Shown here: positions 5,562-14,484 of the stretch, piece by piece | Layout: the number at the start of each line of letters is the position of its first letter | How positions within the stretch are numbered: the first letter of the stretch is position 1 | Assembly (NCBI RefSeq): GCF_014644295.1 | Contig: NZ_BMKK01000007.1 | Coordinates: 124,001-188,000 of the forward strand | Origin: Emticicia aquatilis | GTDB lineage: Bacteria > Bacteroidota > Bacteroidia > Cytophagales > Spirosomataceae | Direction: 5' to 3' | DNA length: 64,000 nt | The notes under the pieces: model-generated | The model's input: only the letters and a program-made list of their open reading frames with translations | Told to the model about the DNA's origin: nothing | Databases searched by the model: none | Translations under genes and position numbers: made by a program

Positions 5562-6086
5562 ATGAGAAGAAAAAACATTTTTGTCTTGATAGCCTTGTGT
5601 ATGAGTTGTATGCAGGTTTTTGCTCAAAAACAAGATACTCTTTATGCCAAAAGAGTTTTTCTTTCGACCCATATTTATGATGATAGTGTAAAATTATCTA
5701 ATCGAAAAGTGACAGAATTGTTTAAGGATACGTGGGCTCCTAAAATAAAATATAAGTGGTCAAAAGCCCTAAAACCTGTTGGAGCATTGGTGGCTATGGG
5801 AGGAATTGGACTTACAAGTTATGCTATCAAAGGAACGAGTTTTATTACAACAATTGAAGGCAAACAAATTAATTATAGAATGATAAGTTTGACTCAACTT
5901 TCGGTTGGAGTAGGTATGTTTGTGATTGGTTGCAGTGTGATAGCTTCTTCTAACCAACTTGCCCGACATTCGGTTGATATCTATAATTCGATGCTCAAAG
6001 CGAGCCAGAAAACCAATGCGATTAATAAAATCCAGTTTGGGTTAACCGAGAGTAATGCTATTGGATTTTCAGTTTTACTAAAATAA
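5562..6086 (+). CDS. Conserved Bacteroidota membrane protein of unknown function, copy A
   Basis: It has 174 residues. A signal peptide of about 21 residues ends FAQ. A TLYAKRVFLSTHIY-type motif is followed by a KLSxxKxxELF segment, two glycine-rich hydrophobic segments (about 73-92 and 109-128), and the C-terminal sequence FGLTESNAIGFSVLLK. I recognise a widespread Bacteroidota type in which a short exported protein has two hydrophobic segments and a final FGLTxNGIG-like beta strand, with no assigned function. The next gene is a tandem paralogue sharing every block. A surface or envelope location is inferred from the signal peptide. Confidence 0.85.
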   Translation: MRRKNIFVLIALCMSCMQVFAQKQDTLYAKRVFLSTHIYDDSVKLSNRKVTELFKDTWAPKIKYKWSKALKPVGALVAMGGIGLTSYAIKGTSFITTIEGKQINYRMISLTQLSVGVGMFVIGCSVIASSNQLARHSVDIYNSMLKASQKTNAINKIQFGLTESNAIGFSVLLK

Positions 6087-6181: not shown

Positions 6182-6703
6182 ATGAAGTACAGCGTCTTTA
6201 TTTTATTAATTATATGTGGTAGTTTTTTTGATGGTTTTGCTCAGAAACCAGATACACTTTATGCCAAACGGGTATTTCTGGCTACACATATTTATAAAGA
6301 TGGGATAAAACTTTCGAGTGGGAAACTCACGAAAATATTTAGCAATACCGAACAGTCCAAAATTAAATATCAGTGGTCAAATATCCTAAAACCAATCGGG
6401 CCAGTAGTTGCTGTTGGAGGTGTTGGGTTAGCGTATGTAGCCCTTAAAGGCGTAGATGCCACTGCAATAGTTGATGGAGAGCCAGTAGATTATAAAATCA
6501 GAAGTTTACCTAAATTACTGATAGGTTTAAGTTTAGTCGTGGGTGGTTTGAGTATGGTTGAATCATCTAACGAACTTGCCCAACATGCCGTTGATATTTA
6601 TAACGCCAAGCTAAAGTCAAATCCAAAAACCAGCTATATAAATAAAATTCAATTCGGTTTAACCGAAACCAATGGCATTGGCTTCTCGATTTCCTTAAAA
6701 TAA
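6182..6703 (+). CDS. Conserved Bacteroidota membrane protein of unknown function, copy B
   Basis: It has 173 residues and is a paralogue of the protein encoded at 5562-6086. Shared blocks are DTLYAKRVFL near the N-terminus, a KxSxxKLTxxF segment, KIKYxWSxxLKPxG before the first hydrophobic segment, HxVDIYNxxLK after the second, and INKIQFGLTExNxIGFSxxLK at the C-terminus. A signal peptide ends near FAQ. The 95-base gap between copies is AT-rich. It is a tandem duplication that has diverged to roughly half identity by eye, so both copies have been kept for some time. Confidence 0.85.
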   Translation: MKYSVFILLIICGSFFDGFAQKPDTLYAKRVFLATHIYKDGIKLSSGKLTKIFSNTEQSKIKYQWSNILKPIGPVVAVGGVGLAYVALKGVDATAIVDGEPVDYKIRSLPKLLIGLSLVVGGLSMVESSNELAQHAVDIYNAKLKSNPKTSYINKIQFGLTETNGIGFSISLK

Positions 6704-9274: not shown

Positions 9275-9308
9275 AACGTCGGCATGGTTCACAATCCATG
9301 CCGACGTT
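9275..9308 (+). terminator. GTCGGCATGG palindrome, copy 1, terminator-like
   Basis: Arms AACGTCGGCATGG (9275-9287) and CCATGCCGACGTT (9296-9308) enclose an 8-base loop and run into TTTTT, 19 bases after the SxtJ-like stop. The same stem recurs at 14452-14484. Confidence 0.75.
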
Positions 9309-10035: not shown

Positions 10036-11301
10036 ATGGTTGATATTCTTTTAGGCTTACAGTGGGGCGATGAAGGCAAAGGCAAAATTGTTGATGTACT
10101 TGCTCCTGATTATCAAGTAGTTGCACGTTTTCAAGGTGGCCCAAATGCTGGTCATACGCTCGAATTCAACGGCAATAAACACGTATTACACCAAATTCCA
10201 TCGGGTGTTTTCCGCACCGATTGCTTAAATATTATCGGAAATGGTGTGGTGCTTGACCCAATTATCTTCAAGAAAGAGATTGATGGTTTAGGAAAATATA
10301 ACCTTGATTTGAAGAAAAACTTAGTTATTTCTAAGAAAACTGCCATAATCATTCCAACTCACCGTTTGCTTGATGCCGCTTACGAAAAAGCCAAAGGTGA
10401 TGCCAAAATTGGCTCAACTTTGAAAGGTATCGGCCCAGCATACTCTGATAAAGTTGCTCGCCAAGGTTTGCGTTTAGGTGATATTATTTCGCCAAACTTC
10501 ACCGAAAGATATAAAGCCTTAGTAGCGAAACATACACAAATCTTAGATTTCCATAACTTTGAGTATGACCTAACTGAAGCTGAAAAAGAATTTTTCGCTG
10601 CTCTTGAGTTTTTGAAAGAATTTAATCTTCAAGATACCGAATACGTTGTCAATCAATCGTTGAAAGACGGACAAAAAGTATTGGCCGAAGGTGCTCAAGG
10701 TTCATTGCTTGATATTGATTTTGGTTCGTATCCGTTCGTTACAAGTTCAAACACAACTGCTGCTGGTGTATGCTCAGGTTTGGGCGTTGCACCAAACACA
10801 GTAGGAGAGGTTTACGGAATTTTCAAGGCATATTGCACACGTGTAGGAAGTGGCCCATTCCCGACCGAATTAGATAACGAACTCGGAGAGAAAATCCGCC
10901 AAGAAGGACGTGAGTTTGGAGCAACTACTGGCCGAGCTCGTCGTACGGGTTGGTTAGATTTGCCAGCACTCAAATACAGTATCATGCTCAATGGCGTAAC
11001 GCAATTGATTATGATGAAAGTTGACGTACTGAATTTCTTAGATGAAGTAAACGTTTGTACGCACTACCGCTTGCCAGATGGTACTGTCACCGAGCAAATG
11101 CCGTTTGATTTGACTGATACTGATGTAGAACCAATCTACAAAACATTCAAAGGTTGGGCTTGCTCGCTTGAGGGAATGCGTAAATTCGACCAAATTCCTG
11201 CTGAATTAGCTGATTACGTAACTTACTTAGAAACTGAGCTTCAAGTACCGATTAGCTTTATTTCAACGGGCCCAGACCGTGAAGAAATCATTTTGCGTTA
11301 A
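10036..11301 (+). CDS. purA: Adenylosuccinate synthetase
   Basis: Catalyses IMP + aspartate + GTP to adenylosuccinate, the first committed step to AMP. It has 421 residues, the standard length. The N-terminal glycine-rich loop GLQWGDEGKGK carries the catalytic Asp. FQGGPNAGHT supplies the catalytic His. STLKGIGPAYSDK, EGAQGSLLDIDFG, TTGRARRTGW and the C-terminal STGPDREE (GTP site) are all present. It is followed by a hairpin and then the psi-like gene. Identification is secure. Confidence 0.97.
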   Translation: MVDILLGLQWGDEGKGKIVDVLAPDYQVVARFQGGPNAGHTLEFNGNKHVLHQIPSGVFRTDCLNIIGNGVVLDPIIFKKEIDGLGKYNLDLKKNLVISKKTAIIIPTHRLLDAAYEKAKGDAKIGSTLKGIGPAYSDKVARQGLRLGDIISPNFTERYKALVAKHTQILDFHNFEYDLTEAEKEFFAALEFLKEFNLQDTEYVVNQSLKDGQKVLAEGAQGSLLDIDFGSYPFVTSSNTTAAGVCSGLGVAPNTVGEVYGIFKAYCTRVGSGPFPTELDNELGEKIRQEGREFGATTGRARRTGWLDLPALKYSIMLNGVTQLIMMKVDVLNFLDEVNVCTHYRLPDGTVTEQMPFDLTDTDVEPIYKTFKGWACSLEGMRKFDQIPAELADYVTYLETELQVPISFISTGPDREEIILR

Positions 11302-11434: not shown

Positions 11435-11971
11435 ATGACTTCAAATCTTGCCAATTATCTTTTTAGTACCGAAACACTCTACAAAAATGTAGTTTCCGAA
11501 AGCCCCAAAGTTGTGGAAGCCAAACCTGTTGTTGAGCAAAAAGCAGTTGTGCAAGAACCAGTTCCTGCCCCAATTCCGCCACGAGAGGTGGCCAAGCCAG
11601 TTATTCCGACTTTCAAATTCCAAAATCAAGTTTTGATTTTGACCGACACGATTTCAGAGTCCGAAAAAGCACTTTTAGTGAAAATTCTCGGAGCAATCGG
11701 CCTTACTCTCGAACAAGTTGATTTAGTAGAATTGAGCAAAGTTCAAACGCTTGATTATCAGTCGTTTTTATCACAGAATGTTACGAAGAAATTTGTGAGT
11801 TTTGGTGTAGGTCTCGGTAAAATAAACTGGAATATTCTACTTAATATCTATCAACCTAAAAATGTTGCTGGGGTTGATTTTTTACTATCAGACGAACTTC
11901 GTGTGCTTGATACTAACCTCGATTTGAAAAAGACCCTTTGGGGAGCCTTGAAGGCGATGTTTGGAAATTGA
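11435..11971 (+). CDS. Small protein resembling DNA polymerase III psi subunit (HolD-like candidate)
   Basis: It has 178 residues: a short conserved-looking N-terminal peptide (1-20, SNLANYLFSTETLYKN), a Val/Pro/Glu/Lys-rich linker (about 22-58), then a compact domain (62-178). The domain opens with hydrophobic strand QVLILTD, a helix ending LLVKILGAIGL, then LEQVDLVEL, and closes with LRVLDTNLDLKKTLW. By eye this follows the order of E. coli HolD (recalled from memory), including the spacing L-x2-L-x2-N-x3-[KR]-x2-L-W at the C-terminus (L155, L158, N161, K165, L168, W169) and the LxA...QV stretch. dnaX, encoding the clamp-loader partner of psi, lies two genes downstream. The assignment is an inference; an unrelated Rossmann-like protein is possible. 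Confidence 0.5.
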   Translation: MTSNLANYLFSTETLYKNVVSESPKVVEAKPVVEQKAVVQEPVPAPIPPREVAKPVIPTFKFQNQVLILTDTISESEKALLVKILGAIGLTLEQVDLVELSKVQTLDYQSFLSQNVTKKFVSFGVGLGKINWNILLNIYQPKNVAGVDFLLSDELRVLDTNLDLKKTLWGALKAMFGN

Positions 11972-12168: not shown

Positions 12169-12543
12169 TCAAATCTGACACAGTTCAATAAAATTCCCAT
12201 CAGGGTCGGTCAGGAATAACTGCAAAATTCCATCGGGGCGAGATTTAATGGGTAAACAATTCGCTCCATTTTCTTTCAGAATTTTCTCTGCCAAATATAT
12301 ATCGCTTACTTCAAGTGCAAAATGGTTACTTCTTATGGGAGTAAATGGAGTTTCGGGTTTTCTACCAATCAGATGTATTTCTCGGCCGTTTCCTAAGCTA
12401 AACCAAACAACTGGATAATCAAAAGCTGGGGCAGGAATTTCCTCTAAACCAAGTATTTCTGAGTAAAAAACTCGACTTTTTTCAATATCAGATATTTGTA
12501 AAGCTACGTGGTTGAATGCCTTTATTGTCAGTTTGTTAGTCAT
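12169..12543 (-). CDS. VOC-family protein (glyoxalase/dioxygenase-like)
   Basis: It has 124 residues, a single-domain vicinal-oxygen-chelate fold with two beta-alpha-beta-beta-beta modules. Candidate metal ligands are the His in FNHVALQI (near residue 12), the His in REIHLIG, the His in SNHFALEV, and the Glu in NFIELCQI at the C-terminus. DPDGN before the last strand is characteristic. The substrate cannot be inferred; family members isomerise, cleave or bind small molecules, including antibiotics. It is divergent from dnaX, with a 94-base shared upstream region holding a TACTTTTG box on the minus strand. Confidence 0.85.
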   Translation of the reverse strand: MTNKLTIKAFNHVALQISDIEKSRVFYSEILGLEEIPAPAFDYPVVWFSLGNGREIHLIGRKPETPFTPIRSNHFALEVSDIYLAEKILKENGANCLPIKSRPDGILQLFLTDPDGNFIELCQI

Positions 12544-12637: not shown

Positions 12638-14440
12638 ATGGAAAAATTTGTTGTTTCGGCCCGAAAATACCGCCCTATCACTTTCGATACAGTTGTAGGT
12701 CAGTCGCACATCACAACTACTTTGCAAAATGCCATTCGCACGAATCATTTAGCACAGGCGTTTTTGTTTTGCGGCCCTCGTGGTGTAGGTAAAACAACTT
12801 GTGCCAGAATTTTGGCCAAAACCATCAACTGCCAAAATCTCACCGAAGATATTTCTCCATGCAACGAGTGCGAGTCATGCAAGAGTTTCAATAATAATGC
12901 TTCTTTCAATATTCACGAACTCGATGCGGCCTCTAATAACTCGGTTGAAGATATTAGAAATCTGACCGACCAAGTGCGTTTTCCTCCGCAGTCGGGTAAG
13001 TATAAGATTTATATCATTGATGAGGTTCACATGCTTTCGCAGGCAGCTTTCAATGCTTTCTTAAAAACCCTCGAAGAGCCACCGAGCTACGCCATTTTTA
13101 TCTTAGCAACCACCGAAAAACACAAAATCTTACCAACGATTCTGAGTCGTTGTCAGATTTTTGATTTTAACCGTATTCAGATAAAAGATATTGCTGAACA
13201 TTTGGCCAGTGTTGCCACCAAAGAAAATGTAAAAGCTGATTATCAAGCACTTGAACTTATTGCTCAAAAGGCTGATGGAGGTTTACGTGATGCCCTTTCG
13301 ATGTTTGATTTGAACGTAACGTTTTCTTCGGGTAATGGACTTACCTATCAGGCTGTCTTAGAAAATTTACATATTCTCGATTATGATTATTACTTCCGAA
13401 TGACCGATGCCTTATCGGCAGGAAATGTATCGGAAGCGTTTTTAATATATAACGAGATTTTGGAAAAAGGCTTTGATGGACACCAATTTGTGGTTGGTTT
13501 GAATGAGCATTTCCGAAACATCATGGTAAGTAAAGACCCGCAAACGGTGAAACTTTTGCAGGTAGCCGAATCTATTCAGCAGCGATACGTTGAGCAGTCG
13601 GCAAAGTTATCGTTGGGTTATATTTTTTCTTCATTAAGTATTGGTAGTCAGCTTGATATCAATTATAAATCGGCCAAAAATCAGCGTTTACACGTTGAAA
13701 TTGGTTTGATGAAACTCTCACAGATTAATCAAGTTTTGAATTTGAGTGAGCTACCCAACAACGGGGACGAAAAAAAAAATAGCAATTCAGTAGTTTCGTC
13801 AACGCCCGTGAGGGCTGAGAGTTCGGAACAAAAATCGGTTGTGGCTGCGGCTACACCAACTACCACCTCACAGGCACAACCAAGTTATGTACAGTCGATT
13901 CCTGCTATGCCCGCAAGGCCAGTTACTCCGACTGTGCCAAGTCCCGCACCGAGCGTACAGCCTACTGCTCGTCCTTCGATGGCTTCTTCAAAGTTGCGTT
14001 CTACGGTTGATATCGAAACATCGGTTTTTAATCCAAAAACTGATGTGCAAAGTGTTGATAATGAGCCAGCTTTGCCAAATTATAGTGATGCTTTTACGTA
14101 TGAAGCTGCACAACAAGCCTTGTTTGCATTTGCCAACGAAAGTGACTTAGAAACCCTAAGGGTAATGCTCAAACGAGAGTTTATCTTAGAAGGAACAACC
14201 TTTAAGTTGCAGTTAGATAACCAAATTCAGATGGATACGCTCACGCAAATGAAGCAAGATTTAGCCACATTTTTGCGTCAGCGATTAAGAAATGCTTCGA
14301 TTCAGATAGTAGCCGAAATTGTTGAGACCACCACCGAACGTAGGCCATATACAGCCCAAGAAAAATTTGAATATTTAGCCAATAAAAACCCAGCTTTATT
14401 GGAATTGAGAGATAAATTGGGGCTGGAATTGGTGTTCTGA
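12638..14440 (+). CDS. dnaX: DNA polymerase III subunit tau/gamma
   Basis: ATPase of the replicative clamp loader. It has 600 residues. AAA+ domain I carries Walker A GPRGVGKT (46-53), a zinc module with C65, C75, C78 and C81, Walker B IYIIDEVHML and the sensor-1/arginine-finger region ILSRCQIF. The collar domain III runs to about residue 370. A Pro/Ser/Thr-rich linker (about 385-465) leads to the tau-specific C-terminal domain (about 480-600). An A10 run at 13770-13779 falls exactly at the end of domain III, and both shifted frames stop within 24 bases, so a gamma-type short product of about 381 residues is plausible. It converges on an M28 peptidase gene across a palindrome. Confidence 0.96.
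   Translation: MEKFVVSARKYRPITFDTVVGQSHITTTLQNAIRTNHLAQAFLFCGPRGVGKTTCARILAKTINCQNLTEDISPCNECESCKSFNNNASFNIHELDAASNNSVEDIRNLTDQVRFPPQSGKYKIYIIDEVHMLSQAAFNAFLKTLEEPPSYAIFILATTEKHKILPTILSRCQIFDFNRIQIKDIAEHLASVATKENVKADYQALELIAQKADGGLRDALSMFDLNVTFSSGNGLTYQAVLENLHILDYDYYFRMTDALSAGNVSEAFLIYNEILEKGFDGHQFVVGLNEHFRNIMVSKDPQTVKLLQVAESIQQRYVEQSAKLSLGYIFSSLSIGSQLDINYKSAKNQRLHVEIGLMKLSQINQVLNLSELPNNGDEKKNSNSVVSSTPVRAESSEQKSVVAAATPTTTSQAQPSYVQSIPAMPARPVTPTVPSPAPSVQPTARPSMASSKLRSTVDIETSVFNPKTDVQSVDNEPALPNYSDAFTYEAAQQALFAFANESDLETLRVMLKREFILEGTTFKLQLDNQIQMDTLTQMKQDLATFLRQRLRNASIQIVAEIVETTTERRPYTAQEKFEYLANKNPALLELRDKLGLELVF
13770..13779 (+). promoter_or_regulatory. A10 slippery run in dnaX, candidate programmed frameshift or transcriptional slippage site
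   Basis: Zero frame reads GAA AAA AAA AAT AGC (E378, K379, K380, N381, S382). Minus-1 ribosomal slippage or insertion of one A gives AAA AAA AAA TAG, stopping at 13780-13782. Loss of one A stops at the TAG at 13791-13793. A short GCCC-GTGA-GGGC hairpin lies at 13804-13815. In E. coli and Thermus, A-rich slip sites at the same boundary produce gamma. Confidence 0.6.
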
Positions 14441-14451
14441 TAAAATCTTTT

Positions 14452-14484
14452 AACGTCGGCATGGTTCAAAACCATGCCGACGTT
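14452..14484. terminator. GTCGGCATGG palindrome, copy 2, between dnaX and the M28 gene
   Basis: Arms 14452-14466 and 14470-14484 are perfect 15-base complements (AACGTCGGCATGGTT) around a 3-base loop. It lies between two convergent genes and matches the palindrome at 9275-9308 apart from the loop. Confidence 0.75.

Follow-up and report, generated by a model that had tools for sequence, protein, structure and literature searches.

The psi subunit (HolD) of DNA polymerase III is a small protein that assists the complex by which sliding clamps are loaded onto DNA. Robinson et al. 2012 (PMC3290774) report it only from gamma-proteobacteria, with the reservation that homologues in other groups may be too diverged to detect, and a 2012 review of clamp loaders (PMC3331839) states more loosely that chi and psi are frequent in bacterial clamp loaders. 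A study of Pseudomonas aeruginosa (PMC3197488, in excerpt) notes several chi-bearing genomes in which no psi was findable and describes a psi with a conserved extreme N-terminus, a long disordered N-terminal stretch and a C-terminal psi core, which pairs with chi and binds single-stranded DNA through its N-terminus. The accessible part of a 2026 preprint (PMC12871192) reports binding of chi-psi to the DnaX collar via psi, while in that of a 2026 paper on a psi-chi fusion (PMC13213242) no evolution or distribution terms were found. Neither a psi from Bacteroidota nor a link between psi and uracil-DNA glycosylase (UDG) was reported in the papers listed by the literature searches (psi/HolD and clamp loader, mostly excluding subscription papers). 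Here we describe a gene in a 64,000-nucleotide window of the 6.7 Mb genome of Emticicia aquatilis (Bacteroidota; contig NZ_BMKK01000007.1, positions 124,001 to 188,000), the product of which looks like a distant relative of psi in a phylum other than that from which psi was described. As chi was not detected with it, the situation is the reverse of that in the psi-less genomes of the P. aeruginosa study.

The open reading frame (ORF) starts with ATG, and its product has the N-terminal peptide, linker and C-terminal domain given in a preliminary description of this locus; the QVLILTD strand, KILGAIGL helix and EQV listed there were all found, as was the C-terminal LW motif, in the form LKKTLW. 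The likeness to HolD proposed in the same description was supported by comparisons with psi models from different sources. Thus, the Pfam psi model PF03603 matched residues 65-112 above its curated cut-off (27.8 bits versus 22.2, E-value 3.2e-6), although far below the scores of HolD from E. coli (158.5 bits), Klebsiella (153.6 bits) and Proteus (127.1 bits). The only NCBIfam models that matched at E<=10 were two psi models, and both matches fell far short of the curated thresholds (16.5 of 201 and 14.1 of 189 bits). Among 52 family members, the five NCBIfam models matched most often were all psi models (8, 7, 6, 3 and 2 members) while the remaining 15 were matched by one member each, and PF03603 was matched at E<=1 by 30 members as opposed to two at most for every other Pfam family. 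As an independent test, alignment with hhalign of the family, represented by Bacteroidota sequences only, to a profile of three enterobacterial HolDs (A3) gave a score of 27.9 (P 5e-4, probability 31%). Shuffling the columns of A3 1000 times never gave a score this high (best 21.9), and the reversed A3 scored 11.2. After realignment this match extended over 89 columns (HolD 38-126). Since the Pfam match covers the other half of the domain than hhalign, the two tests are complementary.

Several results limit the case for homology with psi. Without realignment, the hhalign score came from 23 columns (HolD 103-125), which correspond to the C-terminal helix with LW, and E. coli HolD alone aligned with the Bacteroidota family at noise level, which is a real limit. 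When 20 other members were compared singly with PF03603, 10 had no psi match at E<=0.1, seven scored under the cut-off and three (L007, L032 and L039) over it; assignment to psi would provide a working name for a family that lies mostly under curated psi cut-offs. Searches of PDB sequences with the single protein and with a profile of 25 family sequences (A1) returned chance-level matches only, with HolD absent, and PF03603, when run over 395 genomes of the phylum, gave two finds and did not recover even the gene described here, presumably because the first pass was loose. With these results taken into account, the protein is still very probably homologous to psi.

A comparison with HolD (1EM8 chain B), suggested in the preliminary description, gave a match of fold. 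Thus, in a structure model the domain (block means of the predicted local distance difference test, pLDDT, 75-92) matched psi chains 1em8_B and 3sxu_B and had the psi domain fold, with 98/102 and 102/110 residues covered and 13-16% identity over the structural alignments. UDGs were retrieved by the same search, and the protein might accordingly be a catalytically dead UDG-fold protein of a function unrelated to psi, such as a DNA- or nucleotide-binding accessory factor. This is unlikely, since E. coli psi itself turns up beside UDGs in that search, coverage of UDG 4zby was lower (123/194) and the UDG model PF03167 was absent from the Pfam matches of the protein at E<=10 and, for the 52 members, from the matches listed (25 of 26 families). 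Moreover, the family aligned with UDG ORFs from kin genomes at P 0.69, compared with 5e-4 for HolD; these 20 entries (one empty, one of 14 residues, one cut to 150 residues and one overlong) were by our reading mostly UNG-type and therefore test family 4 poorly. Family 4 UDGs are characterized by Fe-S cysteines and a motif B histidine. Neither was found here, as the whole 178-residue protein contains no Cys and no His, and its domain is also shorter than those of family 4 (4zby, 1ui0).

Compared with E. coli HolD (NC_000913.3 b4372, PDB 1EM8/3SXU), the protein is alike in the fold of the C-terminal domain, in a C-terminal helix with LW and in an N-terminal peptide that precedes the domain, and differs in its linker of about 40 residues and in the genes that adjoin it (purA as opposed to rimI for holD). 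The C-terminal helix was seen in the structure model and its signature K and W are both kept in 52 of 52 members; the C-terminal LW predicted for orthologues was likewise evident, the residue before W being L in 50 members, I in one and F in one. At the other end of the protein, an LFxxExLY-type pattern, written with its variants after the sequences were seen, was present in 34 of 52 members as opposed to 2.8% of shuffled N-termini, and many of the 18 others carry shorter or shifted versions by eye. The structure model has a low-confidence helix at residues 3-11, where pLDDT block means are 61-65. The three enterobacterial psi N-termini share L-G-I-x-Q-W-x-L-R, whereas the window protein has no LGIxQW; a loose likeness by eye to E. 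coli QLGITQWSL is noted, from which no claim is drawn. The peptide appears to agree with psi in position and plan but not demonstrably in motif. The linker, with pLDDT below 50 at residues 21-48 and 50-57, is 78% Pro/Glu/Val/Ala/Lys, and the overall plan resembles that of P. aeruginosa psi by its published description.

The gene is conserved and under selection. Single-sequence search recovered relatives from 26 of 38 kin genomes, and profile A2 (52 sequences, many of them A1 matches), which contains many of these same relatives, recovered them from 31 of 37; the gene is therefore conserved and not a chance reading frame. Over the 395 phylum genomes, matches were noted in 36 with A1 and in 43 with A2, which includes many of those 36. 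The 43 belong to numbered families f1 (4), f12 (3), f16 (8), f17 (10), f18 (13) and f21 (5), while the 20 listed among the 352 genomes without an A2 match are all in f19, f20, f22 and f23; the other 332 are unlisted, and these counts are hence not family-by-family rates. Five loci from named close relatives (Emticicia or Cytophagaceae metagenome-assembled genomes) showed 77-95% identity. Ratios of nonsynonymous to synonymous substitution (dN/dS) against six same-genus relatives were 0.04-0.09 for the domain (five pairs, dS being saturated in the sixth), 0.05-0.12 for the peptide (four pairs, the other two having no amino-acid change there) and 0.12-0.56 for the linker (six pairs), which indicates a constrained domain joined by a free linker to a short and conserved peptide. 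Two members of 129 residues (L048 and L051) lack the linker, their N-peptide being joined directly to the first strand, and one family match (G214:C2:526908-527225) lies within a 568-residue open frame that may be either a fusion or just overlong.

The placement of dnaX two genes downstream, given in the preliminary description, is right for the window, where a convergent glyoxalase-like gene lies between (Table 1). Among relatives this arrangement was local only: dnaX was close in 7 of 26 kin loci (L001-L007, from 7 of 11 same-genus genomes, with flanks mostly of 1.5 kb) and in all five loci of named close relatives, but, among 20 regions taken with longer flanks (usually 5-6 kb), only in one (L095, same genus). 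Because it is confined to close relatives, the linkage is no argument for function, and proximity to dnaX was rejected as functional evidence. This local linkage, together with an N-peptide unlike the enterobacterial one, would suit a psi-fold protein that acts independently of DnaX and binds, for example, primase, the clamp or a repair factor through its peptide; the psi sequence match and the shared peptide-linker-domain plan make this quite unlikely. Of the 26 loci L001-L026, 16 contain purA. Among 31 phylum loci (L032-L062, 29 genomes, two also in the first set), with neighbour families named from Pfam matches of query proteins, 15 have a Ham1/RdgB-type gene next to or close to the family member, 14 an IlvE-like class IV aminotransferase and 11 a 4HBT thioesterase. 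Linkage to rdgB hints no more than mildly at a place in DNA metabolism. In L110, L113, L114 and other phylum loci the psi-like gene lies upstream of the Ham1/RdgB-type gene, and in L110 and L113 it is divergent from the IlvE-like gene.

An association of the family with holC, raised in the preliminary description, was not seen in the Bacteroidota genomes searched. The chi model PF04364 found no chi in the E. aquatilis genome and none over cut-off in 198 phylum genomes, whereas the E. coli and Caulobacter controls were positive (14 controls in all); four of the 198 gave matches below cut-off, and the one inspected (L064) was helicase-like. In agreement with these results, chi is likely to be truly absent. 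Of three matches in the genome to single-stranded DNA-binding protein (SSB), two end in DDLPF or GDLPF, so that an acidic tail of the type bound by chi in E. coli is available; the third, SSB-like match (G000:C5:140891-141193) is without an acidic tail. Retention of these tails would also fit a psi whose chi partner is present but too divergent to be recognized, in which case Bacteroidota would have the whole chi-psi bridge to SSB. High divergence is reported for psi, which may escape detection in other groups for that reason (PMC3290774, PMC3197488), and the same might apply to chi; in view of the PF04364 results with their positive controls, we regard such a pairing as unlikely.

The window gene product, taken as a divergent homologue of psi, is probably a clamp-loader accessory. 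Residues 1-20 would bind the collar of DnaX (domain III), as does the N-terminus of E. coli psi, and might thereby stabilize the clamp loader, while the flexible linker would make the psi domain available to a fork-associated partner. Because chi is undetectable, this partner could be an over-diverged chi, a different protein or SSB, through its acidic tail. More tentatively, several Bacteroidota families may use a chi-less psi, with an N-terminal peptide and linker of its own, as their sole clamp-loader accessory. Its domain would be a glycosylase-type fold that is dead and in direct contact with SSB or DNA, and psi would then not be a gamma-proteobacterial invention. A psi homologue in Bacteroidota suggests that psi either has an older origin or was transferred between phyla, and its occurrence without detectable chi in several families makes the tie between clamp loader and SSB testable in tractable organisms.

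Table 1. Features of the psi-like gene and its neighbours (positions in the window)
Feature	Position	Strand	Basis or remark
psi (HolD)-like gene, 178 aa	11435..11971	+	ORF; PF03603 27.8 bits; family alignment of 52
Conserved N-terminal peptide, codons 1-20	11435..11494	+	LFxxExLY motif; candidate DnaX-collar-binding peptide
Disordered, faster-evolving linker, codons 21-60	11495..11614	+	pLDDT; dN/dS
psi-like domain, codons 61-178	11615..11968	+	alpha/beta fold common to UDGs; structural and PF03603 matches
C-terminal helix, codons 162-176	11918..11962	+	K165 and W169 (K-x2-[LIF]-W)
purA, upstream neighbour	10036..11301	+	
Glyoxalase-like gene, downstream neighbour	12169..12543	-	convergent
dnaX	12638..14440	+	beyond glyoxalase-like gene

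Two further features were noted in the window. A palindrome of 29-30 nucleotides (CGTCGGCATGGTT...CCATGCCGACG) occurs in intergenic gaps at 9277-9306 and 14454-14482, one copy on each side of the fur-purA-psi-dnaX stretch; these places, 5.2 kb apart, were the only two in the genome by exact-pattern search. Tandem paralogues of 174 and 173 residues are encoded at 5562-6086 and 6182-6703; L095 and L096 have single relatives in the vicinity of fur.
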